Of a DNA stretch of 38,649 nt, positions 20,681 through 38,321 are shown piece after piece (the stretch's first letter is position 1; every line of letters begins with the position of its first letter). The notes below the pieces were generated by a model that made no database searches, was not told the origin of the DNA, and saw only the letters and a list, made by a program, of their open reading frames with translations. The position numbers and the translations under genes were made by a program. Source of the DNA: a virus. The stretch is taken from positions 1 to 38,649 of IMG/VR virus record IMGVR_UViG_3300029449_000141; one strand, 5' to 3'.

Positions 20681-20683
20681 GAG

Positions 20684-20711
20684 TTGTAACCACAACAAAA
20701 CGAGATATATA
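20684..20711 (+). promoter_or_regulatory. Possible promoter before the HTH gene
   Basis: TTGTAA (20684-20689), a 16-base spacer and TATATA (20706-20711) precede the HTH gene start at 20730. The spacing is one base short. It would let the restriction cluster be expressed apart from the two-gene module. Confidence 0.3.
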
Positions 20712-20729
20712 CATTATGGAGGTTTTGAC

Positions 20730-20930
20730 ATGAGCAACGAGATTGATAAGAATATAACCGAAAAATGGGTGAATCTTGAGGATATCGCCGAGTATCTCAG
20801 TGTAAGCAAGGACACTGTCCGCACGTGGATGCGGGAAGGTAAACTCCCCGTTAATAAAGCCGGGAAACGCTATAAGTTTAAAGTCTCCGAAGTTGACGAG
20901 TGGGTACGCAAGGGCAAAATCAAGGAGTAA
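20730..20930 (+). CDS. Excisionase-type HTH DNA-binding protein
   Basis: 66 residues behind GGAGGTTTTGAC. Nearly the whole protein is a MerR/excisionase-like winged helix: WVNLEDIAEYLSVSKDTVRTW, MREGKLPVNKAGKRY and a wing leading to DEWVRKGK. It lies 29 bases ahead of the helicase gene and points the same way. Small proteins of this class often precede restriction operons and act as their regulators; less often they are true excisionases. With no integrase in the window, operon control is the better reading. It is a candidate ligand for the inverted repeat upstream, though that is speculative. Confidence 0.88.
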   Translation: MSNEIDKNITEKWVNLEDIAEYLSVSKDTVRTWMREGKLPVNKAGKRYKFKVSEVDEWVRKGKIKE

Positions 20931-20959
20931 ATCGAATGAAATTCTAAGGAGTCAATAAT

Positions 20960-23900
20960 ATGCAGATGCCAGAAATGCTTGATAATGTGAATAAAACGGT
21001 TAAGGACGACTTGACCGTTTCGATAAACAAGGGCGACAAGCTGTCCATAGCGGCTGCCTGTTTCTCCATATATGCGTACCAAGCCCTCAAGAAACAGCTT
21101 GATGGCATCAATGAGTTGCGTTTTATTTTCACCTCACCGACTTTCCTGCATGAGAAGGCGCCCAAGGAAAAACGAGAGTTCTATATCCCACGTCTTAACC
21201 GTGAGCTTTCACTCTACGGCACGGAGTTTGAAGTGAAGCTTCGTAATGAATTGACACAAAAGGCAATTGCCCGCGAGTGTTCCGACTGGATTCGTAAGAA
21301 GGTAAAATTCCGTTCCAACCTCACAGGCGGGAACATCAGCGGTTTTATGAATGTTGAAGGAAATGAGTGCACGACCTATATGCCACTACATGGGTTCACC
21401 ACTTCCGACATCGGTTGCGAGCGTGGCAACAATATCATTAATCCGGTTAATAAGATGTTTGCGCCGCTCTCCGGCGAGTATATCCGTATGTTTAATCAAA
21501 TTTGGAACGACAAGAGCCTGATGCAAGATGTGACTGAGCAGGTCATCGATGGTATCACTGCGGCCTATAACGAAAACGCACCAGAGTTTATTTACTTTGT
21601 GGCAATATACAATATCTTCAATGAGTTCTTGGAGGATATCTCCGAGGACGTTTTACCCAATGAAGCGACGGGATTTAAAGAGAGTAAAATCTGGAATATG
21701 TTATATGCATTCCAAAAGGACGCCGTACTTGCGATTATTAACAAACTTGAATCATATAACGGATGTATCCTTGCAGACAGCGTAGGACTTGGTAAAACAT
21801 TTACCGCCCTTGCTGTCGTTAAGTATTATGAAAATCGCAACCGCTCCGTGCTTGTTTTGTGCCCTAAGAAGTTGTCGGATAACTGGAATACATATAAAGA
21901 CAACTATGTGAACAACCCAATAGCTGCCGACCGCTTGCGATATGATGTGCTGTATCATACGGACCTTTCAAGGGATCGCGGCAAATCCAACGGGCTTGAT
22001 TTGGATAGGCTTAACTGGGGCAATTATGACCTTGTGGTAATCGATGAGTCCCACAACTTTAGAAACGGCGGTGAAGTATATGGAGAAGACCGTCGCGAGA
22101 ATCGCTACCTTCGTTTAATGAACCGTGTTATACGCACGGGAGTAAAGACGAAGGTTTTGATGCTTTCGGCAACTCCAGTCAACAACCGTTTTACCGATCT
22201 TCGCCACCAGCTTGAACTTGCTTATGAGGGCAATCCGAGTCTCATCAATGAGAAACTCGGCATAAATCGCACAATAGATGAAATTTTTAGAAGCGCCCAA
22301 AAGCAATTCAACCAGTGGAACAAGAAGGAAGAGGACGAAAGAACTACGAACTCGCTGTTAAAGTCACTCGATTTCGACTTTTTTGAGGTGCTGGACAGCG
22401 TGACCATCGCTCGCTCCCGTAAACATATAGAAAAATATTACAATATGAAGGAGATAGGCTCATTCCCCGAACGATTGAAGCCCATCTCTTTGCGACCGCG
22501 CCTGACCGATTTAGAAAGCGCAATAAACTACAGCGAAATTTACTATCAGCTAATGAAATTGAATCTCTCGGTGTATATCCCTACCGATTACATATTCCCA
22601 AGTATGCTCCATAAATATGTTGATACTTCCCGCAACATCAACCGCGCAGGGCGTGAAATGGGCATACGCCGCTTGATGAGCATAAACCTAATGAAACGAC
22701 TCGAAAGCTCCGTAGAGTCCTTTCGGCTCACTGTTGGGCGGGTTAAGCAATTAATTGATAGCACAATTGCCGAAATAGATGCCTACACAAGTGGCGGCTA
22801 TTCGGTTATAGACGGACGGGAACTCACAGGCGACGCAGACTTCGACGATGATGATCGCAATACGGAGTATTTTGCTGCCGAACACAGCATCAAAATTGAC
22901 CTTGGCGACATGGATTATAAAACCTGGCGGGACAGGCTTTCAGAAGACAGCGAGGAGCTTGCCTTACTGAAAATGCTGATTGACGATATCACACCAAAAC
23001 ACGACACAAAACTCCAGACGCTTTTCGGACTTATCGAAGGCAAACTGACGAATCCGATTAACGATAGAAACCGAAAGATCCTGATATTCTCAGCATTCTC
23101 AGATACGGCGGAGTATCTGTACCACCATGTCAGTTCATTCGTGAAGTCTAAATTTGGGCTTGATACGGCGATGATTACGGGAAGCGTTGATGGCAAAACC
23201 ACGATAAAGGGACAGCGGGCTTCTATGAACGAGGTGCTGACCTTGTTCTCCCCGATTTCAAAGGACAAAAACCTGTTGATGCCAAACAACACCGCTGACA
23301 TTTCGGTGCTGATTGCCACAGACTGCATATCAGAAGGTCAGAACCTGCAAGACTGCGACTATTGCGTCAACTACGACATTCACTGGAACCCCGTCCGTAT
23401 TATTCAGCGTTTCGGGCGGATTGACCGTATTGGCAGCCGCAACGAGGTTATTCAGCTTGTCAACTTCTGGCCGGACGTGGATTTGGATGAGTATCTCTCC
23501 CTTAAAGGTAGGGTGGAAACAAGGATGCGGATTTCTGTCATGACCGCAACCGGTGACGACGACCTTATCAACGCCGAGGAAAAAGGCGACCTTGAATACC
23601 GCAAAGCGCAACTCAAACGACTTCAAGAGGAAGTTGTGGATATAGAAGATATGCAGTCGGGCATCTCCATTATGGATTTGGGACTGAACGAATTTAGGCT
23701 TGACCTGCTTGAATATGTTAAAAACAATGGCGATATGGATAAAGTTCCTTTTGGGCTTCATGCGGTTGTCCCCGCTTCGGAGGATTGTCCGCCGGGAATT
23801 GTGTTCGTGTTGAAGAACCGCAATAACAGCGTAAACATTGATATGCAGAACCGCCTCCACCCGTTTTACATGGTGTATATAGGAACGGACGGTGAAGTCA

Positions 23901-24190
23901 TTTGCGACCATCTTTCCCCAAAGGAACTGCTTGACAAGTTCCGATCTCTATGCAGGGGCAAAACCGAACCAACGATGGAAGCCTGCCAAGACTTCAACAA
24001 AGAGACAAAAGACGGGCGAGATATGCGCGGCGTGTCCACGTTGTTATCGGATGCAATCAACTCAATTATTGAAGTAAAAGAGGAAAGCGATATCGATAGC
24101 TTGTTCAGCCCGGGCGGCACATCTGCCCTAAATACCAATATCAGCGGGCTGGATGATTTTGAATTGATTTGCTTCCTTGTGGTGAGGTGA
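20960..24190 (+). CDS. SNF2-type defence helicase with degenerate PLD-like N-terminus
   Basis: 1076 residues; ATG eight bases after AAGGAG. Residues about 25-165 resemble the phospholipase D-like front domain of defence helicases, but I see no HxK motif, so it looks non-catalytic. The SF2/SNF2 motor follows: motif I DSVGLGKT (about 273-280), motif II DESH (362-365), motif III LSATPVNN, and the C-lobe DCISEGQNLQDCDYC plus IIQRFGRIDRIGS. This motif layout is intact. The next gene (DUF4391) begins four bases after the stop. Helicases of this type supply DNA translocation in DISARM-like and other multi-gene systems. Here it heads the Mod-Res operon as an extra motor beyond Res itself. Confidence 0.9.
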   Translation: MQMPEMLDNVNKTVKDDLTVSINKGDKLSIAAACFSIYAYQALKKQLDGINELRFIFTSPTFLHEKAPKEKREFYIPRLNRELSLYGTEFEVKLRNELTQKAIARECSDWIRKKVKFRSNLTGGNISGFMNVEGNECTTYMPLHGFTTSDIGCERGNNIINPVNKMFAPLSGEYIRMFNQIWNDKSLMQDVTEQVIDGITAAYNENAPEFIYFVAIYNIFNEFLEDISEDVLPNEATGFKESKIWNMLYAFQKDAVLAIINKLESYNGCILADSVGLGKTFTALAVVKYYENRNRSVLVLCPKKLSDNWNTYKDNYVNNPIAADRLRYDVLYHTDLSRDRGKSNGLDLDRLNWGNYDLVVIDESHNFRNGGEVYGEDRRENRYLRLMNRVIRTGVKTKVLMLSATPVNNRFTDLRHQLELAYEGNPSLINEKLGINRTIDEIFRSAQKQFNQWNKKEEDERTTNSLLKSLDFDFFEVLDSVTIARSRKHIEKYYNMKEIGSFPERLKPISLRPRLTDLESAINYSEIYYQLMKLNLSVYIPTDYIFPSMLHKYVDTSRNINRAGREMGIRRLMSINLMKRLESSVESFRLTVGRVKQLIDSTIAEIDAYTSGGYSVIDGRELTGDADFDDDDRNTEYFAAEHSIKIDLGDMDYKTWRDRLSEDSEELALLKMLIDDITPKHDTKLQTLFGLIEGKLTNPINDRNRKILIFSAFSDTAEYLYHHVSSFVKSKFGLDTAMITGSVDGKTTIKGQRASMNEVLTLFSPISKDKNLLMPNNTADISVLIATDCISEGQNLQDCDYCVNYDIHWNPVRIIQRFGRIDRIGSRNEVIQLVNFWPDVDLDEYLSLKGRVETRMRISVMTATGDDDLINAEEKGDLEYRKAQLKRLQEEVVDIEDMQSGISIMDLGLNEFRLDLLEYVKNNGDMDKVPFGLHAVVPASEDCPPGIVFVLKNRNNSVNIDMQNRLHPFYMVYIGTDGEVICDHLSPKELLDKFRSLCRGKTEPTMEACQDFNKETKDGRDMRGVSTLLSDAINSIIEVKEESDIDSLFSPGGTSALNTNISGLDDFELICFLVVR

Positions 24191-24194
24191 CGAG

Positions 24195-24806
24195 ATGTTA
24201 GGATTGCCACGCACAACGCAGGTAAACCGCCGTGTTGCAAAAGAGAAGCTTTATCAAAACGCAGCTCTTGCGCCCCAAACGCGTGAGATGATAAAGGACC
24301 AGATAGATTCAGTCTTCTGGCGAAACAAGCTTGCAGATAGCACGATGGCGATCAGTGCAGGCGAAACAGTTGCAGAAATTCAGATATTTGAAATTCAGCT
24401 TCGCCAACGGGAACTCGACAAGCGGGTTTTGCCCGCCATTGCCAAAGCAATACCGTATAAAATCCTGTTTATTCTCGTGTTCGGCGACGAGGCACAGTTG
24501 TGGATTGAAGCGGCTGGCATGTTCTACAACACTGACTGGCAGCCGCTTGGCGGTTTTGCGTTGAAGTTCGAGGGGTTAAATCTGGATGCGGTGTACGAAA
24601 ACTTGGCGCGGCAGATTTCGGGTGGACGGCTTGGTACGGAGGGCGACATTGAAGAAGCCGTAGACCGTGATAAACAGCGGCAAAGACTCGAACATGATAT
24701 TGCCGCCTTGGAAAAGAAACTACTGCGTGAGAAGCAGTTTAATAAACAGGTTGAGTTGAATGGCGAGTTGAAACGGCTACGAGCCGAGTTGGAAAGGATG
24801 GGGTGA
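24195..24806 (+). CDS. DUF4391 protein
   Basis: 203 residues. The N-terminal 150 residues match DUF4391, with LPRTTQVNRRVAKEKLYQN, a DQIDSVFWRNKLA stretch, the strand IQIFEIQLRQRELDKRVL and then IPYKILFILVFGDEAQLW. The last 50 residues (about 152-203) are a charged coiled coil. DUF4391 genes usually sit directly after an SNF2-type helicase in operons with DNA methylases, so the product is probably a partner of that helicase. No catalytic residues are evident. Biochemical role unknown; its coiled coil may dock to the helicase or to another component. Confidence 0.85.
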   Translation: MLGLPRTTQVNRRVAKEKLYQNAALAPQTREMIKDQIDSVFWRNKLADSTMAISAGETVAEIQIFEIQLRQRELDKRVLPAIAKAIPYKILFILVFGDEAQLWIEAAGMFYNTDWQPLGGFALKFEGLNLDAVYENLARQISGGRLGTEGDIEEAVDRDKQRQRLEHDIAALEKKLLREKQFNKQVELNGELKRLRAELERMG

Positions 24807-24808
24807 AT

Positions 24809-25795
24809 ATGAATTTGACTTTTACTGCAAGGACAACTCCTGCCTGTCAGGATTTTTTGAAGATAAGAAAAGACGATGTATGTTACACGATTGATGAGTT
24901 TATTGCAAAGTATCATTCTGATTCCGATGAGGTTCTTGGTGATTGCGTAATTCAATACCGTGAAGCAGAAATGAGTCACCAAAAGATGGTTGATGATTAT
25001 GTTGCTTTTTCGGAAGGCTTGGAATTTTACAATTTTCAAGAGCCGGCACTTGTGTTTGATAATTCGATACAGGCAGCTATCTATTTTGCGAAAAAAGCAA
25101 GAGAGTGTCTGCAAATCGCACGGTTTTTTGCAATGAAAAGCGCGTTGCTTTTAGATACTGATTACAACTTGAATTGGTCACAGGGCTATGTACCTCAATA
25201 CTTATTTCGGTGCATAAATTTTGGAACTGCTTCAACATGGTATTCTAATTGCTTCGACAACATTCTCCAAGTAGCATATTGGGGCTTTTCGTTATATACA
25301 TCTGCTGTTGATAGAGATGGTAATACTTACGACGATTCGTGGGATGCAAAAAAGATTATGGGGCTTTGCACATACGAGCTTGTTGTCGCGGAATTGAAAA
25401 CTCGCGGACTCAAGGATATAAGAAAAAGCCTAACATCATGCTCTGGTAAATTTGAAGATGTAAGAATGTGGGCGAACTATATTAAGCATAAAGGCGGCAT
25501 CGACTACAAACATCTGGAAGCTGAGAAGCCTTTCCAAGTGTATCTGATGCCGATTGAGGAAGGACAAGAAAAAATACCTCCGCTGCAAATAGGTGATAAG
25601 TATAAGCAACCTGACGAGCGTTTTGCAATCAACGACTTTAAATCTCCCGTTGAGGTCGATATAGATGCAAATCTTCCAAGACTAAGAGAAACACACATTG
25701 CCATACACAAATGCCTTGGCGAGATAGTAACCGCCGTGGATTTCGACGGACATTCAGTAAAAATAGGAAGCAAGGAGGGCAACCCAAATGAATAA
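24809..25795 (+). CDS. HEPN-like protein inserted between DUF4391 and Mod
   Basis: 328 residues from the ATG at 24809; a GTG six bases earlier is also possible. The protein is mostly helical: FDNSIQAAIYFAKKARECLQ and RFFAMKSALLLDTDYN lead to VRMWANYIKHKGGIDY. There an Arg and a His, about 219 and 227, resemble the R-x(n)-H site of HEPN ribonucleases, and the context AN-x-IKHKG resembles the Cthe_2314-type HEPN group. The family link is tentative. The gene is clearly more AT-rich than DUF4391 (38% against 52% GC in sampled 60-base blocks), and it overlaps Mod by 8 bases. It may be an RNase effector that fires when restriction fails. Confidence 0.6.
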   Translation: MNLTFTARTTPACQDFLKIRKDDVCYTIDEFIAKYHSDSDEVLGDCVIQYREAEMSHQKMVDDYVAFSEGLEFYNFQEPALVFDNSIQAAIYFAKKARECLQIARFFAMKSALLLDTDYNLNWSQGYVPQYLFRCINFGTASTWYSNCFDNILQVAYWGFSLYTSAVDRDGNTYDDSWDAKKIMGLCTYELVVAELKTRGLKDIRKSLTSCSGKFEDVRMWANYIKHKGGIDYKHLEAEKPFQVYLMPIEEGQEKIPPLQIGDKYKQPDERFAINDFKSPVEVDIDANLPRLRETHIAIHKCLGEIVTAVDFDGHSVKIGSKEGNPNE

Positions 25796-27632
25796 ACCAA
25801 AATTTGAAACCCCGAACCTCACCGCCGAGAATGTGGCGAAAATAGCTGAACTTTTTCCCGGTGTGGTGACCGAAGGGAAGGTTAATTTTGACCTGCTGCG
25901 CTGTATGCTGGGTGATGAGTTATACGGCGATGAAGTTTACGAGTTTACATGGGTGGGTAAGCGCGCCGCCATTGCCGAAGCAGGGCGGCCAGTTCGCAAA
26001 ACCCTCCGCCCCTGCGTGGAGGAAAGCAAAAACTGGGACACAACTGAAAATCTCTACATTGAGGGAGACAACCTTGATGTGTTGAAATTGTTGCAAGAAA
26101 GCTACCTCGGCAAGGTGAAGATGATCTATATCGACCCTCCCTATAACACAGGCAACGACTTTGTTTACCGCGATGATTTTACTCAAAGTCGTGATGAGTA
26201 CGATGGTGAAGTTGGGGTATACAATGAAGATGGCGATAGATTATTCAGAAACACCGAAAGCAACGGTCGTTTCCACTCTGATTGGTGTAGTATGATTTAT
26301 CCACGTCTTGTTTTAGCGCGAAATATATTGAAAGACGATGGAGTCATTTTCATAAGTATTGATGAAAATGAAGTCCAAAATATGCGGAAGATATGTGATG
26401 AGGTATTCGGAGAAGCTAACTTCATCTCGCAACTTGGATGGCAAAAGGTATACTCACCAAAAAACCAAGCTCGTTATTTTTCTAATGATTATGAGTTTAT
26501 TCTTTGTTATTGTAAATCAATCGCAAGTTTTTCCGTGGGTTCTTTACCAAGAACCCCTGAGATGAACGCTCGTTACAAAAATCCTGATAATGACCCCAGA
26601 GGGGATTGGAAAGCGGGCGATTGTGTTGGGTCTGGTATCAGAAAAAATGGCTATTATGATGTTGTCAGCCCCAAGACAGGCAAAACGCATAATGTACCAC
26701 AAGGCAAGCATTGGGTTTATGCTCCGGAAACAATGAAGCGACTAATTGCCGACAATCGAATTTGGTTTGGACACGACGGGAACAGTTTTCCAGCAGTTAA
26801 ACAATTTATTTCGGAAGTAGGTGGACGAAAAGCATCAAGTTTACTTTTATATAATGACTTTGGTCATACTGATATGGCAATGAAAGATTTGAAAAAAATA
26901 TTTAGTGAGATGGAAAAAGTTCCATTTGACACGCCTAAGCCTGTAAAACTTGTTAAGATGCTTTCAATTCTCGGTATGTCTAACGATGATATTATCCTCG
27001 ACTTTTTTGCCGGTTCTGGTACTACTGCGCAGTCCATTATGGAGTTGAACGGTGAGGAAAATGGCAATCGTAAATTTATTCTAGTTCAAATTGATGAAGC
27101 AATTGAAAACAATGATGAAGCAATTTCTTTAGGCATGAATACAATTAGCGATGTGACAAAAGAACGCATACGCCGCGCCGGGGACAAAATCAAAGCCGAA
27201 GCGGGCTTGACTGCACAGAACCTCGACATTGGCTTCCGTGTGCTTAAACTCGACGAAACAAACATGAACGACGTGTACTATGCAGCGGGCGACTACACTC
27301 AAGAATTAGTGCTTCAGATGGAGAGAAACATTAAGCCCGACCGCACCGATTTGGATTTGCTTTATGGTTGCTTACTTGACTGGGGCTTGCCTCTTTCTAT
27401 GCCTCACTCGCATGAAGAAATAGACGGTTTCACCGTCCACACCTACAGCGACGGAGACTTAATTGCCTGCTTCGAGGAACGTATCAGCGAAAAAGCTATT
27501 CGTGAAATCGCAGGCCGCAAACCCCTACGTGCCATATTCCGCGACAGTAGCTTTACCAGTTCGCCCGAAAAAATAAACGTGTTTGAAATCTTCAAGCTGC
27601 TTGCACCCAACACGAATGTGAGGGTGATGTAA
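25788..27632 (+). CDS. mod: Type III restriction-modification methyltransferase (Mod)
   Basis: 614 residues; ATG after GGAGGG. N6-adenine methyltransferase of the beta layout: motif IV DPPYNTGND with Asp at 116 and Tyr at 119, and later the AdoMet motif DFFAGSGTTAQ (about 405-415). The part between them, including the target recognition domain, is sharply more AT-rich: a sampled block at 26461 has 23% GC, against 62% at 25981 and 55% at 27181. That suggests the specificity domain was exchanged. The protein modifies host sites and gives Res its specificity. Two HEPN-like genes flank it, so the Mod-Res pair is split by accessory genes. Confidence 0.94.
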   Translation: MNKPKFETPNLTAENVAKIAELFPGVVTEGKVNFDLLRCMLGDELYGDEVYEFTWVGKRAAIAEAGRPVRKTLRPCVEESKNWDTTENLYIEGDNLDVLKLLQESYLGKVKMIYIDPPYNTGNDFVYRDDFTQSRDEYDGEVGVYNEDGDRLFRNTESNGRFHSDWCSMIYPRLVLARNILKDDGVIFISIDENEVQNMRKICDEVFGEANFISQLGWQKVYSPKNQARYFSNDYEFILCYCKSIASFSVGSLPRTPEMNARYKNPDNDPRGDWKAGDCVGSGIRKNGYYDVVSPKTGKTHNVPQGKHWVYAPETMKRLIADNRIWFGHDGNSFPAVKQFISEVGGRKASSLLLYNDFGHTDMAMKDLKKIFSEMEKVPFDTPKPVKLVKMLSILGMSNDDIILDFFAGSGTTAQSIMELNGEENGNRKFILVQIDEAIENNDEAISLGMNTISDVTKERIRRAGDKIKAEAGLTAQNLDIGFRVLKLDETNMNDVYYAAGDYTQELVLQMERNIKPDRTDLDLLYGCLLDWGLPLSMPHSHEEIDGFTVHTYSDGDLIACFEERISEKAIREIAGRKPLRAIFRDSSFTSSPEKINVFEIFKLLAPNTNVRVM

Positions 27633-27633
27633 G

Positions 27634-28470: not shown

Positions 28471-28485
28471 GAAGGAGGGATATAG

Positions 28486-31400
28486 ATGAAATTAAAGTTT
28501 AGGCATCAGCCTTTTCAGGCAGACGCAGCAAAAGCAGTTTGTGACGTGTTCGCAAGTCAGCCGTTACGCACCCCAACATATATGATAGATTCCGGTTTGG
28601 GACAGCTTTCCCTATCCCAAACACAGGATTTTACGGGCTTTAGCAATGCGCCTATTGCTGTTTCTGATGAAAAAATACTGGAGCATATCCGCGCCACTCA
28701 GCGGCAAGGGGGTATAAAACCGTCCGATTCACTTGTAGGCCGTTTTAACCTGACCATTGAGATGGAAACAGGTGTTGGCAAAACCTATACATATATCAAG
28801 ACCATGTACGAGCTTAACAAACGGTATGGCTGGAGCAAATTTATCATCGTTGTGCCAAGCGTAGCTATTCGTGAGGGTGTTTATAAATCCTTCCAAATGA
28901 CGGAGGAGCATTTTGCCGAGGATTACGGCAAGAAAATCCGCTATTTCATTTATAATTCCTCGCAGCTCACTGAGATTGACCGGTTCGCTTCTGATAGTGC
29001 AATTAACGTGATGATCATCAACAGCCAAGCGTTTAATGCAAGAGGTAAGGACGCCCGGCGTATTTATATGAAGCTTGATGAGTTTCGTTCTCGCCGTCCG
29101 ATTGATATCATCGCAAAAACAAACCCGATATTGATCATCGATGAGCCACAGTCGGTGGAAGGTAAAGCAACAAAAGAGCGATTGAAAGAGTTCGCTCCCC
29201 TTGTCACCCTTCGTTATTCTGCGACCCACAAAGCTGACAGTATGTACAACATGATTTACCGCTTGGATGCGATCGAAGCCTATAACAAACGGCTCGTAAA
29301 AAAGATAGCCGTCAAGGGTATTTCGGTTTCCGGTAGCACCGCTACTGAAGGCTATGTTTATGTGCAGAGCATAAACCTTTCAAAGGGAAACCCCACAGCG
29401 ACAATCGAATTTGACATAAAGAATAAGACCGGCTTCAGTCCAAAAACACGGGTAGTAATCGAAGGTTATAGTCTGTTCGATAACTCCGGAGAGCTTGCCG
29501 AATATAAGGACGGCTATACCGTTTTGCGAATTGACGGCAGAGATTCTTCCGTTGAATTTACAAACGGTAAGAAGTTGTTTGCCGGGGATGTTATCGGTGC
29601 GGTCAGTGAGGATCAGTTGCGTCGTATTCAGATACGGGAAACCATCCTGTCCCATATCGAGCGGGAGCGGCAGTTATTTACCAAAGGCGTGAAGGTTTTA
29701 TCGCTTTTCTTTATTGATGAAGTGGCGAAGTACAAGCAGTATGATGCTTCAGGCAACGCACAGGGCGGCACCTATGCTGAGATTTTCGAGGAGGAGTACA
29801 AAGCCATCGTCGGCAGTATGCAGCTTGCCTTAACTGACACGACGGAGTACCTTGCGTATCTTGACGGTATTGAGGTCGAGCGGACACATGCTGGTTACTT
29901 TTCAATTGATAAGAAAAGTGGTCGTATGGTAGACAGTAAGCTCGGCGATAGAAAAGAACGCACATCCGACGACGCGGATGCCTATGACCTCATCATGAAG
30001 GACAAGGAACGCCTGCTTGACCGCCGAGAGCCTGTGCGGTTTATCTTTTCCCACTCTGCCTTGCGCGAAGGCTGGGATAACCCGAATGTTTTTCAGATTT
30101 GTACTTTGAAACAGAGCGGAAGCGATGTTCGTAAACGCCAGGAAGTCGGGCGTGGGCTGCGCCTTGCCGTCAATCAAGGCGGCGAACGTATGGATGAAAC
30201 CCTCCTATCCCGCGAGGAAGTCCACAATATCAACGTACTGACGGTTATTGCAAACGAAAGCTACGATAGCTTCGCCAAGGGATTGCAAAGCGAAATTGCC
30301 GAAGCTGTCGGCGATCGTCCGCGCAAGGTGGAAGCAAAGCTGTTCACAGAGAAGTTCGGCGAAGATACAGCCCTTGCTATATATGAGAGCTTAATAGAAA
30401 ACGGTTATGTGAAGCGAGGCGAACTAACCGAGAAATATTACGAGGATAAGAAAAACGGCACTATAGAAGTACCTGAAGAAGCAGCCGGACAAACTGCTGA
30501 TGTCATAGCCGTACTGGATTCTGTCTACGATCCGAATGCCAATAAGCCTGAAAACGCTCGCAAAAACACCGTCGAGGTCACGCTTGATAAGGGAAAACTG
30601 GATAGCAAGGCATTCCAAGAACTGTGGTCACGCATTAACCACAAAAGCTACTATGTCGTAGGATTTGATGAAGATGAATTGGTGGAAAAGGCTGTAAAGG
30701 AACTGAATGCACGACTGCGCGTTTCGAAGATTTATTTCAGGGTTGAGACGGGCGAACAGGCAAAGAATATTGACTCCAAGGAACAGCTTGAGTACGGAGA
30801 AGCATTTGTTCGAAAGGATATGGTGCGCGAGGAAGCGGCTTCATTCATGACGATGCGGGCAAGTTCATCCGTCCACTACGATCTTGTTGGAAAAATCGTA
30901 GCAGAGACGGGACTAACCAGAAAAGCCGTGACAAAGATTATGGTCAGGCTCGAAAAAGTAATCTTTGACCAGTTTGGAGACAACCCCGAAGAGTATATTA
31001 TCCGCGCGTCTAACATCATCAACGAACAGAAAGCCACAGCAATTATCGAACACATAACCTACGATAAGCTGACCGCTGCTTTTGGTACTGATATATTCAC
31101 CGAACCTGATCTTAAAAAAGGTAGCCTTGGCGTGAACGCCATGGAGGCAAAGCGCCACTTATATGATTATGTTATTTACGATTCAACCAACGAGCGTGAT
31201 TTCGCTTCCGCGTTAGAAGCGCACAGCCAAGAAGTAGAGGTCTATGTCAAGTTGCCACGCGGATTTTATATCAACACCCCTGTGGGCAAGTATAACCCCG
31301 ACTGGGCGATTGCGTTCTATGAAGGTAAAGTGAAACACATTTATTTCGTTGCTGAAACGAAAGGTGATATGTCCTCGATGGAACTACGCAAAATCGAGGA

Positions 31401-31509
31401 AGCCAAAGCACACTGCGCCCGTGAGCATTTCCGTGCTATCAGCGGCGATAAGGTGAAATACGATGTAGTTGACAGCTATGACAAGCTGTGGGAGCTGGTA
31501 CAGGGATAA
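28486..31509 (+). CDS. res: Type III restriction subunit (Res), helicase-nuclease
   Basis: 1007 residues behind GGAGGG. Superfamily 2 motor with motif I METGVGKT (93-100), the type III variant DEPQ (219-222), LRYSATHK and motif VI RQEVGRGLRL (about 549-558). A C-terminal PD-(D/E)XK nuclease has Pro938-Asp939 in NPDWAI, then Glu957 and Lys959 in AETKG. All key residues are present, so the enzyme should cleave DNA with Mod when two unmethylated head-to-head sites meet, as in EcoP1I-type systems. It is separated from Mod only by the Abi_C gene. Confidence 0.95.
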   Translation: MKLKFRHQPFQADAAKAVCDVFASQPLRTPTYMIDSGLGQLSLSQTQDFTGFSNAPIAVSDEKILEHIRATQRQGGIKPSDSLVGRFNLTIEMETGVGKTYTYIKTMYELNKRYGWSKFIIVVPSVAIREGVYKSFQMTEEHFAEDYGKKIRYFIYNSSQLTEIDRFASDSAINVMIINSQAFNARGKDARRIYMKLDEFRSRRPIDIIAKTNPILIIDEPQSVEGKATKERLKEFAPLVTLRYSATHKADSMYNMIYRLDAIEAYNKRLVKKIAVKGISVSGSTATEGYVYVQSINLSKGNPTATIEFDIKNKTGFSPKTRVVIEGYSLFDNSGELAEYKDGYTVLRIDGRDSSVEFTNGKKLFAGDVIGAVSEDQLRRIQIRETILSHIERERQLFTKGVKVLSLFFIDEVAKYKQYDASGNAQGGTYAEIFEEEYKAIVGSMQLALTDTTEYLAYLDGIEVERTHAGYFSIDKKSGRMVDSKLGDRKERTSDDADAYDLIMKDKERLLDRREPVRFIFSHSALREGWDNPNVFQICTLKQSGSDVRKRQEVGRGLRLAVNQGGERMDETLLSREEVHNINVLTVIANESYDSFAKGLQSEIAEAVGDRPRKVEAKLFTEKFGEDTALAIYESLIENGYVKRGELTEKYYEDKKNGTIEVPEEAAGQTADVIAVLDSVYDPNANKPENARKNTVEVTLDKGKLDSKAFQELWSRINHKSYYVVGFDEDELVEKAVKELNARLRVSKIYFRVETGEQAKNIDSKEQLEYGEAFVRKDMVREEAASFMTMRASSSVHYDLVGKIVAETGLTRKAVTKIMVRLEKVIFDQFGDNPEEYIIRASNIINEQKATAIIEHITYDKLTAAFGTDIFTEPDLKKGSLGVNAMEAKRHLYDYVIYDSTNERDFASALEAHSQEVEVYVKLPRGFYINTPVGKYNPDWAIAFYEGKVKHIYFVAETKGDMSSMELRKIEEAKAHCAREHFRAISGDKVKYDVVDSYDKLWELVQG

Positions 31510-31533
31510 AAATAGTCTGAGGGGAGAGAAAAT

Positions 31534-32859
31534 ATGGGTGGGGCTACTATTATATGTCCGAATTGCAAAAAGTCTTTTGAAATATCTGATGCCATACAGC
31601 ACCAGATTGAGGATGAGTTGCTTCGGGCAAAAACTGAGCAGTCGGAGACACTCCGCAAGGAGTATGATGCCGCTGCCGAGATAAAGTTAAAGCAAGCCGT
31701 GGAAAATGCTATATCCGAGGCACAACAGGCGGCACAGCTTCAAATTGAACGGGAGCGGCAGACTGCTAAACTTGAACTGGACAAGGCTCGCCAAACTACT
31801 GAACTTGAAGTTGAAAAGGCAAAGCAGACCACGGAACTCGAAACCGAGCGTCTGCGCCGTGAAGCCACCGCTTCAAAGGAAAGCGAAAAGCAGCTCCGTA
31901 AGCAGTTATCGGATTTGCTCGAAGAACTCTCCAAGGCAAATAAGGCGCGTGAGGATGCAGAACTCACGGCCCGCAAGGAACTGCTCGAAAAAGAAAAAGG
32001 CATACGTGCCGAGGCGGCGCAAAAAGCCTCCGAGGACTTCAACACAAAAATCCGCGAGCAGGAGGAAACCATCAACCGGTTACGTGAGCAATTAACCACA
32101 GCTAAACAGGTAGCGGAACAAGGTTCACAGCAGTTACAGGGTGAAATCCTCGAACTGGATATCGAAAATGCCCTCCGCAGCGGTTTCCCGTTCGATACAG
32201 TCGAGGAAGTCAAAAAGGGCGAACGCGGTTCGGACATTCGCCAAGTGGTCAACGAGCAGTTTTATATGAACTGCGGCTTGATTTTATGGGAGTGTAAAAA
32301 TGCCAAGACCTATCAGGCAAGCTGGCTCGGCAAACTGAAAGATGAAATTGCATCAGAAAAAGCTCAAATGGGAGTTATTGTGTTCAATCCCACTGACGGA
32401 GGAGGCGACGACTTCAAACAGCTTGCTGATAATATCTGGCTTGTGAAGCCGCGCTATGTGATAATGCTCGCCACGTTATTGCGGGAAGCAATCGTCAAGG
32501 TCTTTGCGGCTAATCGCGCTGCTGAAGGCAAAGATGTGAAGGTTGAACTGATATACAACTATCTGACCGGTGGCGAGTTTAGTAACCGGATTCGTTATAT
32601 CCTTGAGTCCTACGACGAAATGGCAAAGCAGCTCGACACCGAGAAGAAACAAGCCCAGAAACGCTGGGCAGCACAGGAAAAAATCTTGCAAAAGGTCACA
32701 AATAGTCTCTATGGTATGAGCGGCGATCTCCAAGGTATAGCCGGCCGGGAGATAATTGCGTTGCCCGCTCTCGGAGATGACGAAGAAGAAATTCCGGCTA
32801 TAAAGCCACGTATATCGGAGCCGCGAAAACGAACGGAGGATATAGATGATGAATACTAA
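31534..32859 (+). CDS. DUF2130 nuclease-like coiled-coil protein
   Basis: 441 residues; good AGGGGAGAG site. A short zinc knuckle at the start (CPNC, 8-11) is followed by a long coiled coil at about 30-205, rich in Ala, Glu and Lys and with repeated QTTELE units. The DUF2130 domain has GERGSDIRQVV and LILWECKNAKTYQASWLGKL. Asp234, Glu253 and Lys255 form a D...E-x-K pattern typical of PD-(D/E)XK nucleases. An acidic tail ends the protein. The coiled coil suggests oligomerisation or DNA-spanning. It sits between Res and the ATPase with a 14-base overlap into the latter, so the two may work together. Nuclease activity is an inference. Confidence 0.85.
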   Translation: MGGATIICPNCKKSFEISDAIQHQIEDELLRAKTEQSETLRKEYDAAAEIKLKQAVENAISEAQQAAQLQIERERQTAKLELDKARQTTELEVEKAKQTTELETERLRREATASKESEKQLRKQLSDLLEELSKANKAREDAELTARKELLEKEKGIRAEAAQKASEDFNTKIREQEETINRLREQLTTAKQVAEQGSQQLQGEILELDIENALRSGFPFDTVEEVKKGERGSDIRQVVNEQFYMNCGLILWECKNAKTYQASWLGKLKDEIASEKAQMGVIVFNPTDGGGDDFKQLADNIWLVKPRYVIMLATLLREAIVKVFAANRAAEGKDVKVELIYNYLTGGEFSNRIRYILESYDEMAKQLDTEKKQAQKRWAAQEKILQKVTNSLYGMSGDLQGIAGREIIALPALGDDEEEIPAIKPRISEPRKRTEDIDDEY

Positions 32860-35140
32860 AATAACTTCCGCAATCGAAAAACTTATGCTAAACGCTGCGA
32901 CTTTTCACGGCATTCCGGTTGAGCCCACGCTTATCAACTTCTTTTATGGAAACAACGGCACGGGAAAATCTACCATAGCGAGGGCTGTCCATGCCAATGA
33001 GGGTTTGTCTTGGCAAGCGGGAAAATCCGCAGATGACTACTCCGTGCTTGTCTATAATCAGGAGTTTGTAGAAGCGAACTTCCGTGACTACGGCAAACTC
33101 AAGGGCGTATTCACCGTTGGCGAGCAGAACATAAAGATTCAAGCTGACATTGCTGAAAAAAACACTCAGCGGGCTGAGCAGGAAAAGCTAAATGGCGAAA
33201 ATACCATAACAAAGGACCGCAAGGAGTCAGCACGAAACACCTTGCTCGACGACTTTCAAGGAACCTGTTGGGATAAAACGAAAGCCATCCGAGACGTATT
33301 TGACGCTACGCAGAGCGGCTTTAAGCGGAAGGCTCAGTTTGCCGAGAAAGTATTGCAAATAGGAAACCCTACTCAGCATGATATAGGAGAGTTAAGAACT
33401 CTGTACGAAACGGCATTTGACCCAAAAGCTGCTACATATAAGAAGTTTCAGCCTACTGGAGGCACGGAAAGATTAAAAGGGTCATCCGGCAACGAACTAC
33501 TTAATAAATCCATTACGAGCAGTAGTGACACACCTTTTGCTGCTTTCATAAAAGCGATTAAAGCTACGGACTGGATACGCCAAGGGCATGAACATTTCGC
33601 CGAAAAATCAGAAGGAAAATGCCCTTATTGCCAACAGGAATTACCCGACGATTTTGAAAAACAAATCTCTGCCTGTTTTGATGGCCAGTATCAAGAGGAT
33701 ATTAGTGCCCTTCGGCAATTTCAAGAGGACTATGTAAGCGATATGCAAGGCTTCCTTGATGTACTTAACGGCAATCTCCAGGATGCTTTCCCGAAACTTG
33801 ATCTTACTGAATATAAGACGAAACTTGCGCTCTTAGAGAAAATGATTGAAATCAATATCCAACGGATAACTGACAAGTTGAAAGAGCCGTCTTCAGTTAT
33901 CACACTTGAAAACGTCAAAACTCTGCGTGATGAAATAAACGTCCTAATCGAGGGTTTTAATAAACAGATTCAAGCAAACAACGACATTGTCGGTGCGAAG
34001 CGTCAGAAGCAAACCGAGTGCACCAGGAAAGTCTGGGAACTTATTGCATTTACACTTCAAAGTGATGTTTCGACCTATAGATTACGGCGCAAGACCTTTG
34101 ATGACGAGATTACTGCATTGATTAAGCTGGTCGATGACGGTGCTAAGGCATCACGAGCTTTAGAAAATGAAATTGCAGAACTTAACAAACGAGTGGTTAG
34201 TACCGCCCCAACCATCAAAAGCATAAACGATTTACTTCGAGATTCAGGTTTCCAGGGCTTCACCCTGCGGGAAAAGCGAGGTCAGCAAAATGTCTACGAG
34301 GTTGTGCGCCAAGACGGGACAGTTGCGGATAAGCTAAGTGAGGGCGAGAGGAATTTCATTGCGTTCCTGTACTTCTATCACCTCGTTCGCGGAAGTCATA
34401 CCGATGCTGATGTTAGCAAGGATAAAATTGTCGTAATAGACGACCCCGTTTCCAGTATGGATAGCTGCGTCCTATTCATCGTCAGCACCTTGGTGCGGGA
34501 GATGGTAGGTGTCTGCTTTAACAACGCTGAATATCGTGAACAGGAACGTGAGGTTCAGGGCGACTATATAAAGCAGATTTTTATCTTGACCCACAACGTC
34601 TATTTCCATAGGGAGATAACCTATAACCAAGCATCCCGCTATCATTGCGTATCGTTCTATGTGATAAACAAAGCGAGTAACAATTCCACAATCAAGCATT
34701 GTGTCCGACAATGTATATCTAAGCCAACCGAGCAAGAAAACTTCAACCCTGTCCAAAACTCCTACGCTGCCCTCTGGGGTGAGTACAGAGAAGTGGATAC
34801 AGTTATTCCGCTAATGAACGTAATACGCCGCATTTTGGAATATTACTTCATGCAACTTTGTGGTTACGACGGTGTGAATATCCGCAAGAGGGTTCTTGAT
34901 GAACATAGAGATAAGTTCGTGGAAACGCCAGACGAAGGGTTACCCGACTACACGAAGTACCACCTCGCCACGGCTATGTTGTCTTATATCAATGCCAACT
35001 CCGTAGGGTTTAGCGATGGTTTGAATTATGTTGATGATTGCACCGACATCACGCTGTATAAGGATGTGTTCAAATTAATTTTTGAAGCCTTGGAGCAGGA
35101 ACAGCATTACAAAATGATGACGGGCGAAGAAGTTGTATAA
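32846..35140 (+). CDS. PrrC/RloC-like AAA_13 ATPase with CxxC hook
   Basis: 764 residues; ATG after GGAGGATATAG. ABC/SMC-like ATPase: Walker A GNNGTGKST (35-43), signature LSEGE (497-501), Walker B IVVIDDPVSSMD (528-539) and a H-loop-like THNVYFHRE. The central coiled coil is interrupted by CPYC (259-262), like the zinc hook of RloC. After the ATPase, MNVIRRILEYYF gives Arg661 and Glu665, an R-x3-E match to the anticodon nuclease triad of PrrC. The His expected in a GSH-type segment is not obvious; the local sequence reads INANSVGF. The protein may be a tRNA nuclease guarding the restriction system, or only an ATP-driven sensor. Confidence 0.85.
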   Translation: MMNTKITSAIEKLMLNAATFHGIPVEPTLINFFYGNNGTGKSTIARAVHANEGLSWQAGKSADDYSVLVYNQEFVEANFRDYGKLKGVFTVGEQNIKIQADIAEKNTQRAEQEKLNGENTITKDRKESARNTLLDDFQGTCWDKTKAIRDVFDATQSGFKRKAQFAEKVLQIGNPTQHDIGELRTLYETAFDPKAATYKKFQPTGGTERLKGSSGNELLNKSITSSSDTPFAAFIKAIKATDWIRQGHEHFAEKSEGKCPYCQQELPDDFEKQISACFDGQYQEDISALRQFQEDYVSDMQGFLDVLNGNLQDAFPKLDLTEYKTKLALLEKMIEINIQRITDKLKEPSSVITLENVKTLRDEINVLIEGFNKQIQANNDIVGAKRQKQTECTRKVWELIAFTLQSDVSTYRLRRKTFDDEITALIKLVDDGAKASRALENEIAELNKRVVSTAPTIKSINDLLRDSGFQGFTLREKRGQQNVYEVVRQDGTVADKLSEGERNFIAFLYFYHLVRGSHTDADVSKDKIVVIDDPVSSMDSCVLFIVSTLVREMVGVCFNNAEYREQEREVQGDYIKQIFILTHNVYFHREITYNQASRYHCVSFYVINKASNNSTIKHCVRQCISKPTEQENFNPVQNSYAALWGEYREVDTVIPLMNVIRRILEYYFMQLCGYDGVNIRKRVLDEHRDKFVETPDEGLPDYTKYHLATAMLSYINANSVGFSDGLNYVDDCTDITLYKDVFKLIFEALEQEQHYKMMTGEEVV

Positions 35141-35168
35141 TTCTACAAAAGTAGCAGGAGGGTTGAAA

Positions 35169-38165
35169 ATGAGTTTTTCAAAACAGAAAATTGGTGACAA
35201 GAACTTCATCGCTCACGTTCCAAGGGGAGCAGATTGGATAAGCGTTGACGAAGTTCTTTCGTCATGGAAAAATAACAGTTTCAGTCTTCCTGAGAGCAAG
35301 TTTGATACTGATGCTGGTTTTCGCTCTGCCCAGTTGGGAGCCATCTATGCTATAAAGTCGCACTGGACAGTATCGTCTTCTGCTGCCACGATTGTTATGC
35401 CAACAGGAACAGGAAAGACCGAGGTGATGATAGCCACAGTAGTGTCTGAACATCGTTCAAAAACCTGCATAATAGTGCCAAGTGACTTATTGCGAAAACA
35501 AACGATTTCAAGATTTTGTTCTCTTGGCAAATTACGCGAGATAGGAGCAATAAATGATTCCTTTGAAAATCCAGTTATCGGGTGCCTTGTTTCGTCGCCA
35601 AAAGACATAACCGAACTACAGGAACTACTCGATAAGAGCAACCTTATCATAACAACAATGTCATTGCTTAATTCTGGTCACTTCAAAGATGAGTTTTTAC
35701 GACTTTTGGCATCAATGTGCGACACACTTATTATTGATGAATCACATCACGTTCCGGCAAATTCATGGAAGAAAGTCAAAAAAGTGTTTGAATCCGTTGA
35801 GTGCTTGCAATTTACAGCCACACCATTCCGAAATGATGGGAAAAAGATCGATGGCGATATCATTTATAATTTTCCGCTTGCTCTTGCCCAAGAGCGTGGG
35901 TATTTCAAGCCGATAAACTTTTATCCGATTTATGAATTCGATAATGACAAAAAGGACTTTTCTGTAGCAGCAAAAGCGATTGATCTTCTTGAGGCGGACA
36001 TAGCAAAAGGATACCCGCATTTACTACTGGTTCGGGCTTCGACACAAACCCGTGCGAAAGCGCTATATGAAAACGTGTACCAGAGTAAATATGCAAAATA
36101 CTCCCCAGTTTTAATCGTTAGTGGAAACAAAGCAACCGATAATCGGACTGCTCTCCAGAAGGTCAATGACGGGACTTCAAAAATCATCGTCTGTGTAGAT
36201 ATGTTTAGCGAAGGGATAGACATCCCACAGTTGAAGATATGTGCAATCCACGACAAATATATGTCCTTGCCTATAACGATGCAGTTCATTGGACGATTTG
36301 CCCGGACACAGGCTGACCTTGGCGAAGCCTCCGTTGTGGCCAATATTGTCGACGACGACATTCAGGAGTCCTTGGAAGAATTGTATTCGCAAGATGCGGA
36401 CTGGAATAAAATACTCAAAGACACGTCGGATGAAAAAATCGGTCGAGAAGTAGAATTGCAGAAATTGGCTCGTGGCTTCACGGGGACAGAAGTCATTCCA
36501 CTAAATCAGATAAGACCGAAAATCAGTATGTTCATGTATACAACGACCGAGTCCCAGTGGTATTGGCGGCGATGGAGCAAGGTCTTCAACGAGGAGCATA
36601 GTCACCACTACGTAAATGAAACAGAGAAAATTTTGATAATTACGGAGCTTCGCACAAGCAACGTGGACTGGACCACTTGTCGCGACATAACGGATGACAA
36701 CTGGAATCTGCACATTCTTTACTGGAACGAAACGAAAAACGTATTTTTCATCAACACGACCGATAAAGGAATAGCTGATAGGTTGGCTGAAGCTGTTTTT
36801 GACAACTATAAACGAATAGCCGGAGAAGATGTGTTCCGTTGCCTTTCAGGAATAAACAGATTGATGCTTTCTACTGTTGGGCTTAAGACCGCCGTTTCCA
36901 ATCATCATATCCGCTACAGAATGTTCGCCGGTGTCGACGTTGCTGAAGGAATAACCGGGGCAACTACAGGTACCGCAACAAAATCAAACCTGTTTGGCGT
37001 GGGTTATGAAAATGGGAGCAGTATAAGTATTGGTTGTTCCTACAAAGGGACGATTTGGGCAAAGTGGGTTGAGACCATAAATTACTGGAAAGACTGGTGC
37101 GATAAACAAGCGGAGAAAATTTTAAACTCGGCTATTGATACCACGACCGTACTAAAAGGTGCGCTTGTTCCAGAGGAAATCACCGCACGGCCTGCGGTTG
37201 TTCCTTATCGAATCGACTTTCCATCGGAAATTGAAGAAGACTGGAAAGGATCAATCACCGTAAAAACGGCTCTAACTGATTCCAAGTCGTTCCTTATGGA
37301 CATAAGGTTGACTTCATTTGATGAAACATCAGAATTAACTTTTTCAGTGGGAAACGATGACTTCAAAGAGGAGTTCACTCTTAAAATAACATCGACTGGG
37401 TATTCGGTTAGCCATAAAAGCGGTTCAATTATAAGCATACGTTTCAGCCGCGGCAGAGAGATGCTCATTAGAGACTTTTTCATGGATAACCCTCCGACAA
37501 TATGGTTTGTTGATGGGTCGTCCCTTGAGGGCAATCTTCTTGTCAAACTAAAAACAGCCCGTCCAGTTACATTTCCTACAGATAGCATTATCCCGTGGGA
37601 TTGGTCTGGGATCGATATCAGTAAAGAATCCCAGGGGACAGACAAAGCGACGGAAAGCATTCAATATAAACTTATTTCAGAATTAAAAGCATCAGGTAAA
37701 TACTGTCTTATTTTCGATGATGACGGTTCTGGAGAAGTGGCAGATGTCATCGCAGTTCAAGAAGACGTTGCAAATAACAAACTTTTATTTGAATTATACC
37801 ATTGTAAATATTCGAGTGCGCCAAAGGCTGGAGCGAGGGTCGGGGATTTATATGAAGTTTGTGGGCAAACGGAAAAATGTATTAAATGGGCAAGTGATTC
37901 AAAATCTATGCTGGAACGACTTATGAGACGCGAAAGCGACAGGGCCAGTAATGGGAAACCCTCGCGATATGAGATTGGAGACAACAAGTTAATGTTTATC
38001 CTAAAAAACAAACTGAAAGTCTATTCATCGGAGTTTAGGGTTTATATAGTTCAACCGGGTGTCGATAGCACCCAAATTACTACCTCAATGCATCAGGTAC
38101 TTTGCAGTGCAGAGGCTTATCTGAAGGATACATACGCAATCCCGTTGACGCTGATCTGCTCATAG
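35169..38165 (+). CDS. Helicase with possible C-terminal nuclease domain
   Basis: 998 residues from the ATG at 35169, eight bases after AGGAGGG; the ATG at 35133 lacks such a site. Superfamily 2 helicase: motif I PTGTGKT (78-84), motif II DESHH (190-194), TATPFR, and motif VI QFIGRFAR (372-379). The middle (about 410-840) has no domain I can name. Near the end GSGEVADVIAV (about 853-863) and YHCKYS (877-882) give an Asp ... H-x-K pattern that may be a variant nuclease site. The gene is AT-rich (33% GC near 35461), with its own ribosome site, and may be a self-contained helicase-nuclease defence gene appended to the operon. Confidence 0.82.
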   Translation: MSFSKQKIGDKNFIAHVPRGADWISVDEVLSSWKNNSFSLPESKFDTDAGFRSAQLGAIYAIKSHWTVSSSAATIVMPTGTGKTEVMIATVVSEHRSKTCIIVPSDLLRKQTISRFCSLGKLREIGAINDSFENPVIGCLVSSPKDITELQELLDKSNLIITTMSLLNSGHFKDEFLRLLASMCDTLIIDESHHVPANSWKKVKKVFESVECLQFTATPFRNDGKKIDGDIIYNFPLALAQERGYFKPINFYPIYEFDNDKKDFSVAAKAIDLLEADIAKGYPHLLLVRASTQTRAKALYENVYQSKYAKYSPVLIVSGNKATDNRTALQKVNDGTSKIIVCVDMFSEGIDIPQLKICAIHDKYMSLPITMQFIGRFARTQADLGEASVVANIVDDDIQESLEELYSQDADWNKILKDTSDEKIGREVELQKLARGFTGTEVIPLNQIRPKISMFMYTTTESQWYWRRWSKVFNEEHSHHYVNETEKILIITELRTSNVDWTTCRDITDDNWNLHILYWNETKNVFFINTTDKGIADRLAEAVFDNYKRIAGEDVFRCLSGINRLMLSTVGLKTAVSNHHIRYRMFAGVDVAEGITGATTGTATKSNLFGVGYENGSSISIGCSYKGTIWAKWVETINYWKDWCDKQAEKILNSAIDTTTVLKGALVPEEITARPAVVPYRIDFPSEIEEDWKGSITVKTALTDSKSFLMDIRLTSFDETSELTFSVGNDDFKEEFTLKITSTGYSVSHKSGSIISIRFSRGREMLIRDFFMDNPPTIWFVDGSSLEGNLLVKLKTARPVTFPTDSIIPWDWSGIDISKESQGTDKATESIQYKLISELKASGKYCLIFDDDGSGEVADVIAVQEDVANNKLLFELYHCKYSSAPKAGARVGDLYEVCGQTEKCIKWASDSKSMLERLMRRESDRASNGKPSRYEIGDNKLMFILKNKLKVYSSEFRVYIVQPGVDSTQITTSMHQVLCSAEAYLKDTYAIPLTLICS

Positions 38166-38321
38166 AAGACGAAATATGCCGTGAGCACCGAAAAATCAGC
38201 ATTTACCATACTAAATTTTAAGGATTTGGATATAGACACTGTGGTGGTGCAAAAGCGGTGCAAATTTTAACGATTTGATTCGAGCGGTGCATTTTATCAA
38301 TAGTTAGTTCCTTTGCCATGC

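Follow-up and report, generated by a model that had tools for sequence, protein, structure and literature searches.

The modification subunit (Mod) of a type III restriction-modification (R-M) system recognises and methylates a short asymmetric site, and together with the restriction subunit (Res) it cuts DNA which is unmarked. Here we describe an operon built around such a pair, situated in the right half of the IMG/VR virus record IMGVR_UViG_3300029449_000141, the whole 38,649-bp stretch of which is referred to below as the window. Several published systems come close to it, and are cited here from excerpts of the sources. Eco86II and BspHIV possess an additional superfamily 2 (SF2) helicase-like ATPase encoded 5' of mod (Murray et al. 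2021, PMC8259958); the Eco86II-type ATPase is found in more than 500 genomes and is described in the excerpt as being without PD-ExK or other nuclease motif. The BREX-related Type-2 systems comprise an HKD-Snf2 helicase, a DUF499 ATPase, DUF3780 and an N6-methyltransferase (PMC12839542). Embedded defence candidates, the PDC and HEC families of PADLOC, were obtained through "guilt-by-embedding" (Payne et al. 2024, as cited in PMC12988326), a term which also appears in PMC10855318 and PMC12255303. Lastly, layered R-M/HEPN defence was proposed in 2013 by Anantharaman et al. (PMC3710099). Both the embedding of defence genes and the occurrence of a helicase beside type III genes have thus been published.

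The conserved core of the present operon consists of a short helix-turn-helix (HTH) gene followed by those for an SNF2 translocase, a DUF4391 protein, Mod and Res, and this core carries exchangeable genes. We regard it as probable that the whole represents a prophage-borne anti-phage operon, that is a type III R-M core carrying exchangeable defence genes. Extra defence-type genes which are swapped in and out show how anti-virus gene sets are assembled, and with the core separated from the genes which ride on it experiments can address the right unit.

Constancy of the core

DUF4391 sequences from ten loci were aligned and used in a genome scan from which the best 80 of 402 confirmed relatives were kept, these 80 genome loci being selected by their likeness to the window; the other loci are 18 viral ones and those from six opened records of the 42 plasmid records. 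SNF2 lies directly upstream of DUF4391 in 77 of the 79 genome loci which leave room for it, and beside DUF4391 in every viral (18/18) and plasmid (6/6) locus. Downstream of DUF4391 comes Mod (62/62 genome loci), which is followed by Res in 48 of 50. Homologues of the 66-amino acid HTH protein precede SNF2 in several loci, and small annotated HTH genes occupy the same spot elsewhere.

An unselected test employed 299 genomes drawn as one phylum, that of Syntrophomonas wolfei (G001), and not chosen by likeness to the window. DUF4391 was detected in 25 of these genomes and SNF2 sequence adjoins 27 of its 28 matches, the single exception (L123) having less than 200 bp upstream. SNF2 itself (E ≤ 1e-60) was found in 21 genomes, all of them within the 25 that contain DUF4391; independence of the two would predict about 1.8 shared genomes (21 x 25 / 299). 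Res (E ≤ 1e-60) is present in 38 genomes, comprising 23 of the 25 DUF4391 genomes and 15 others; the Res family therefore occurs both with and without the SNF2-DUF4391 pair, and no such pair without type III genes was seen in the 299 genomes where room existed. A second draw of 398 genomes yielded DUF4391 in 23, with SNF2 at 22 of 26 matches, and the four misses are situated near contig ends as judged by locus length and contig position. Two sets of matches (L143/L149 and L184/L186) probably represent split single genes, each part being counted as a separate match. In Escherichia coli three versions of the core were matched in 10, 54 and 24 of 5,426 genomes, with queries that covered differing parts of the core (one of the 24 genomes has an SNF2 piece only); this species also holds Mod-Res lacking the SNF2-DUF4391 pair. 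The core was found in loci titled as several phyla, in addition to these E. coli genomes.

SNF2 and DUF4391 are, then, hardly ever found without each other or without this type of Mod-Res. An earlier note on this DNA had maintained that Mod-Res is not here a bare two-gene system, and the tight linkage of SNF2 and DUF4391 to Mod-Res in many taxa bears this out. The non-random pairing also argues against a plain defence island in which type III genes, an extra helicase and single-gene systems inserted by chance share a locus with no functional coupling, an explanation which we consider unlikely and to which we return with the cargo genes. For experiment the SNF2-DUF4391 pair offers a clean target, through which it might be learned what a type III enzyme gains from retaining another motor.

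Two loci may be recorded in their own right. Contig 1 of G001 carries the SNF2-DUF4391-Mod core once more, in a more distant version and with Res nearby (L148), and in E. coli CFT073 (L196) the core adjoins a tRNA-Leu gene and an integrase that is broken, with a remnant of brxA alongside.

The core proteins and a possible mode of action

The SNF2 protein matches the PADLOC "HKD+Snf2" model (E 8e-123) and its motor motifs are intact. A model of residues 1-246, of moderate confidence (predicted local distance difference test, pLDDT, 79.7), resembles the phospholipase D (PLD)-type structures of SauUSI (E 1e-5) and NgoAVII (E 3e-4), with template modelling (TM) scores below 0.5. The motif HxKx4D occurs within the first 250 amino acids in merely 4 of 90 SNF2 sequences and the window protein does not have it; PLD nuclease activity was rejected on account of this loss, despite the fitting fold. 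The DUF4391 model is confident (pLDDT 93.6), and Foldseek gave no PDB match to it at E ≤ 0.001. The VIA structure matches mostly cover the C-terminal helices, the globular part being barely probed, and a search by sequence for a solved relative produced one weak match (E 0.6). Eight residues are invariant in 74 DUF4391 sequences (P5, K16, W42, E61, Y134, E179, Q181 and N183). Structure alignments A5 and A6 exclude plasmid rows. Mod is matched by the PADLOC MTase_III profile over residues 1-613 with intact DPPY and FAGSGT motifs, and Res by REase_III over its full length, with intact motifs, an SF2 motor and a C-terminal PD-(D/E)XK nuclease domain (RE_endonuc, 8.6e-34; PDW...ETK), which identify the two as type III subunits.

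Possessing an intact motor and a PLD-fold domain devoid of the catalytic motif, SNF2 might serve as a DNA translocase which acts on, or clears, DNA-bound Mod-Res, and DUF4391, which ends in a helical hairpin, might link motor and enzyme. The genes lying between DUF4391, Mod and Res would be second-line effectors which gain co-expression from their position.

Several observations weigh against this reading. The coupling of SNF2 and DUF4391 to Mod-Res would follow from linkage only and, since the fold search yielded nothing clear, the role given to DUF4391 is a guess. According to the excerpt on the similar-looking Eco86II-type enzymes (PMC8259958), methylation and cleavage in vitro both proceed without the extra helicase, which was also not detected in the partly purified enzyme. 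Two genome loci (L078 and L082) show no SNF2 match in the approximately 500-650 bp available upstream, and two more (L027 and L088) contain other ORFs (open reading frames) for about 5 kb past Mod and no Res. Among the 299 genomes, four with DUF4391 are without SNF2 at the cut-off (G052, G239, G257 and G307), three of these showing SNF2 pieces beside DUF4391, and G052 ending there; G166 and G239 have no Res match, yet Mod adjoins DUF4391 in both.

Two cargo slots

The DUF4391-Mod and Mod-Res gaps, here termed slots A and B, are mostly 0-60 bp in length when empty (maximum 176) and are otherwise filled by other ORFs. Counting a gap of more than 200 bp as filled, and including loci dropped from the ORF sets described below, slot A is occupied in 36/73 genome, 4/15 viral and 0/6 plasmid loci; the corresponding values for slot B are 21/62, 6/15 and 1/6, the plasmid case being L007, which is broken by an insertion sequence (IS). 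For the ORF sets, plus-strand ORFs of roughly ≥ 90 amino acids were picked by hand, and minus-strand and shorter ORFs were excluded, as were L104 (the same locus as L103), L007 (broken by its IS) and L026, whose gap holds no obvious ORF; nor do the sets include the long ORF in slot A of L092/L093. The resulting 71 ORFs (41 from slot A and 30 from slot B) fall into 38 clusters. Among the Pfam matches listed for slot A (25 of 40) are Bro-N, PDDEXK_3, TIR, Schlafen AlbA_2, AAA_13, Trypsin_2, SIR2_2, YhcG and DUF4145, and among those listed for slot B (25 of 29) are RhuM (at least 6 of the 30 ORFs), Fic (at least 3), YhcG (at least 2), TIR, Schlafen, HNH, PLDc_2, Mrr_cat, HEPN and the Abi_C of the window. 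The PADLOC matches listed for slot A (25 of 83) include PDC-S66, PDC-S13 and parts of Thoeris; those listed for slot B (25 of 103) include PDC-S05 (at least 7/30) and PDC-S23 (at least 6/30). The genes between DUF4391, Mod and Res thus differ widely between loci, several of the families being of effector type, and the two slots are a short list of places in which to seek new effectors.

How the cargo relates to the core can be viewed in more than one way. Homologous cargo genes are common to loci whose Mods are, in most of the pairs listed, 44-70% identical, so a cargo gene does not belong to one particular Mod; this would also suit insertion by chance into an island. The slot ORFs, however, are mostly on the strand of the operon and often touch or overlap the gene beside them, which together with the pairing of SNF2 and DUF4391 speaks against an uncoupled collection. 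A guard arrangement may also be envisaged, like that of PrrC in the hsd operon, in which slot toxins are silenced by Mod-Res-SNF2 and freed when a phage disables restriction. The slot genes directly adjoin Mod, families of toxin type occur in the slots, and PrrC furnishes the precedent (PMC3710099); but slot A is empty in 37/73 and slot B in 41/62 genome loci, and many of the slot ORFs match single-gene defence candidates, so that we think a guard function decidedly unlikely. Exchangeable defence genes on a type III core remain our preferred explanation.

The window has both slots filled, and the earlier note had described the two products as HEPN-like. The label suits the slot B protein, which carries the motif RNNQSYAH and matches Abi_C, barely over the cut-off. 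It finds little to uphold it in the slot A protein (24803-25795), to which no Pfam, PADLOC or NCBIfam model was matched and for which no plasmid or viral relative was found. A single homologue (44%) turned up among the slot ORFs, in L011, and as aligned it retains none of the Rx4-6H motifs; G143 has a different gene.

Slot occupancy showed some further patterns. Both slots are empty in ten Bacilli loci from Paenibacillus, Brevibacillus and Cohnella (L051, L053, L055, L057, L059, L062, L064, L070, L073 and L079), and many Clostridia-type loci fill one or both; a further Paenibacillus locus (L074) has a slot A gap of 567 bp. The use of cargo may depend on lineage. In another genome (L174) DUF4391 is no more than 1.5 kb away from a homologue of DUF2130, and this family may therefore also serve as slot A cargo.

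A natural swap

A near-identical element in genome G143 has had one block replaced (Table 1). Compared with the window its DNA is 95.6-96.4% identical over most of positions 1-17846, 98.9% over 17347-24778 and 99.3% over 28486-38190, and at the protein level SNF2 (99.9%), Res (98.9%), DUF2130 (100%), AAA_13 (99.9%) and the last helicase (99.8%) are all but unchanged. The Mods, by comparison, are 61% identical; slot A of G143 holds a 156-amino acid gene without real similarity to that of the window, and its slot B is empty. Mosaic sequence in DUF4391 (91%) and at the very start of Res points to recombination through the flanking core genes. A third version is seen in S. wolfei JCM 14075 (L011, in G001), where SNF2, Res, DUF2130 and AAA_13 are 97-99% identical to those of the window, Mod is 58% identical, slot A contains the homologue mentioned above and slot B is empty. 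Across 165 locus pairs with SNF2 at least 85% identical, which are non-independent and include the twin L103/L104, the median identities are 89% for SNF2, 78% for DUF4391 and 65% for Mod; for Res, over 154 of these pairs, the median is 84%. With the window and G143 elements so alike outside the replaced block, the swap lends itself directly to comparing specificity and cargo.

One might go further and propose that slot A, Mod and slot B make up an exchange cassette on a fixed SNF2-DUF4391-Res chassis, such that a change of specificity would bring in a new second-line effector gated by that Mod. If this were true, it would be the SNF2-DUF4391 pair that allows the core to accept whichever Mod and whichever effector. 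We rate the proposal as speculative and rather doubtful. Homologous cargo accompanies Mods which are 59-78% identical where SNF2 is 85-91% identical, and a strict coupling of cargo to Mod is not supported, homologous cargo being found with quite different Mods.

The G143 element bears as well on whether the nine genes form a single integrated system with all of them needed, along the lines of the layered defence suggested in the earlier note. The nine genes share one strand with tiny spacers, and G143 retains the last helicase. That element has neither the HEPN-like nor the Abi_C gene of the window, however, and we take this difference as decisive against one nine-gene unit. The order of events which the note had in mind, cutting DNA first and then shutting down the cell, would be plausible in itself, and was put forward in 2013 for R-M operons containing HEPN genes (PMC3710099).

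Genes downstream of Res

In the window Res is followed by DUF2130, AAA_13 and a helicase gene. DUF2130 (profile 1.1e-49) displays a G-S-D...E-C-K motif in 5/5 sequences. It follows Res in G143 and in 4 of 42 genome loci. Both DUF2130 and AAA_13 come after Res in L011, L014, L016, L017 and G143. These five loci favour a single integrated system, and the low frequency tells against it.

AAA_13 is matched over nearly its full length (profile 8.8e-131), and the PADLOC model PDC-S06 (1.9e-223, residues 10-762 of 764) assigns it to that family; no solved relative was found by sequence at E ≤ 0.01. In this ATPase, described earlier as "PrrC/RloC-like", a P-loop and a CPYC hook are present, and at the position of the NDGSH-type motif there is NANSVGF. 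The catalytic histidine required in PrrC and RloC (PMC3710099) is absent from 7/7 close AAA_13 proteins (those of the window, G143, L011, L014, L016 and L017, and the second copy of G003) and present in 8/8 of the plasmid homologues opened from among 106 records with a match. Its absence bears against an RNase role, and the likeness to PrrC/RloC stops short of an anticodon nuclease. Of the three putative RNA-targeting factors in the earlier note, motif support is thus found for the Abi_C protein and not for the other two.

The second AAA_13 copy in G003 (L152:2912-6738) is 52% identical and shares its contig with the type III operon; it directly follows homologues (30% and 37%) of the two genes at 19126-20680. 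These two genes and AAA_13 may travel as a cassette of their own.

The last helicase has a ResIII-type profile match (1.4e-22). It was also listed as a putative nuclease: Pfam reveals no nuclease domain, and a possible nuclease motif, D...HCK...Q, is present in 4/4 aligned homologues. The gene is found at its place in G143 and not in 4/4 extended relatives (G001, G002, G003 and G010). What follows DUF2130-AAA_13 is variable, namely a DUF4357/RAMA protein and RhuM in G001, an AAA_5-McrBC pair with a macro-domain protein in G002, and three genes without Pfam match in G003. The 80 genome loci gave no strong match to this helicase, reaching 10 kb past DUF4391 and so ending short of its place, and a whole-genome search of nine genomes and two plasmids gave partial, weak matches (best E 8.2e-8). 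It was matched in 183 plasmid records, three opened contexts of which show no type III genes.

In the five plasmid regions opened, AAA_13 and the last helicase have other surroundings, as would be expected of single-gene systems in a plain island and not of an integrated unit. The earlier note had named genes mostly found apart as grounds for refutation, and by that measure the two slot genes of the window, DUF2130 and the last helicase all count against a single system. With the last helicase missing from its place in four relatives as well, we judge a nine-gene system with every gene needed to be highly improbable, and favour a type III core to which the remaining genes are additions.

The window and its operon

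The left half of the window, on the minus strand, consists of phage genes, among which profile searches revealed a protease, portal, large terminase, helicase-primase, anti-repressor, polymerase and single-stranded DNA-binding protein. The right half, on the plus strand, contains two hypothetical genes, the HTH gene and then nine genes ending at 38165 (Table 1). The nine ORFs (20960-38165) overlap or are separated by spacers of at most about 30 bp, and the ORF list confirms the single strand and short spacers previously remarked upon. Profile searches likewise sustain the labels SNF2, DUF4391, Mod, Res, DUF2130, AAA_13 and ResIII-type helicase. The two hypothetical genes gave no match to Pfam or PADLOC profiles; homologues occupy the same position in L002, L004, L011, L014, L016, L017 and G143. 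Searches for close DNA matches to the operon gave none in E. coli and a single 117-bp stretch in plasmids.

Table 1. Positions of the features discussed in the text
Feature	Position	Strand	Remarks
Two hypothetical genes (310 and 209 amino acids)	19126..20680	+	Upstream of operon; kept in close loci; outside core
Short helix-turn-helix protein, 66 amino acids	20730..20930	+	First operon gene; label by eye and from homologues
SNF2-family translocase, degenerate phospholipase D-fold N-terminal domain	20960..24190	+	Core; profiles, model
DUF4391 protein	24195..24806	+	Core; Pfam 7.9e-50
Slot A cargo, 330 amino acids, no known family	24803..25795	+	HEPN-like by appearance only
Type III methyltransferase/specificity subunit Mod	25788..27632	+	Core, fast-changing; PADLOC 4.9e-227
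Slot B cargo, Abi_C (HEPN-like)	27634..28470	+	Pfam 1.1e-05
Type III restriction subunit Res	28486..31509	+	Core; PADLOC 1.9e-286
DUF2130 protein, PD-(D/E)XK-like motif	31534..32859	+	Lineage-specific addition; profile and motif
AAA_13 (PDC-S06) ATPase, CPYC hook, HEPN-type C-terminus without histidine	32846..35140	+	
ResIII-type helicase, possible C-terminal nuclease motif	35133..38165	+	Variable last position
Block replaced between window and G143 (slot A, Mod, slot B)	24778..28486	+	
Probable right end of mobile element	38247..38319	.	Limit of G143 homology; recurrence in G003

Homology to G143 stops at 38319, and in G003 the sequence 38256-38318 is found again towards the far end of the related region; the operon therefore most likely occupies the right-hand end of a phage-like element that has integrated. 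The stretches searched contained no further copy of this end. The final 20 or so bases of the window give the impression of a tRNA gene start, and a tRNA scan of the window found none. Among the phage genes, that at 4301-5017, near the packaging genes, matches the amidoligase family phrog_2443, and that at 5208-6461 combines ParB-like and DNA methyltransferase parts (phrog_498 and phrog_620).

Comparison with known systems

Assignment to BREX, DISARM or the BREX-related systems was rejected on marker genes. The operon proteins gave no match to PglZ or BrxC/PglY (for SNF2 and Mod, among the best 25 PADLOC matches listed), the BREX-type matches being to the BrxHI and BrxHII helicase models only, which hit SNF2 in part. 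Matches to the DISARM models DrmA and DrmD are partial helicase matches (for NCBIfam DrmD, 150 bits where the cut-off is 610), and DrmB is not among the matches listed. In this the marker genes agree with the earlier exclusion of BREX and DISARM. The BREX-related Type-2 systems, as far as the excerpt describes them, are alike in having a PLD-fold N-terminal domain fused to an Snf2 helicase beside a methyltransferase; the window differs in that there is no DUF499 or DUF3780 match, the HKD motif is lost and Res is present.

In the literature searched, which held few preprints and few subscription journals, we found neither an SNF2-DUF4391-Mod-Res unit with slots nor the swap. Among the closest known systems are those of Eco86II type, in which, as in our loci, the gene for a conserved helicase-like ATPase precedes those for a type III Mod and Res. 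Their helicase gene is immediately 5' of mod, whereas DUF4391 intervenes in the present loci, and the excerpt of PMC8259958 mentions no cargo slots such as are present here. NCTC86 was not among the megablast matches listed for the three E. coli core versions, and the Eco86II helicase family is compared here by its description. The PrrC/PrrI and HEPN-R-M neighbourhoods, as excerpted, resemble the present operon in combining R-M genes with genes of ABC-HEPN, RhuM and Fic/Doc type; here, in contrast, the core is type III and the ABC-HEPN-like protein is without the catalytic histidine. With the embedded defence candidates the operon shares nested defence genes, AAA_13 being PDC-S06 and many slot ORFs matching PDC models, and it differs from what the excerpts describe in that the nesting takes place in a type III core containing SNF2-DUF4391 and that two near-identical elements show a swap.

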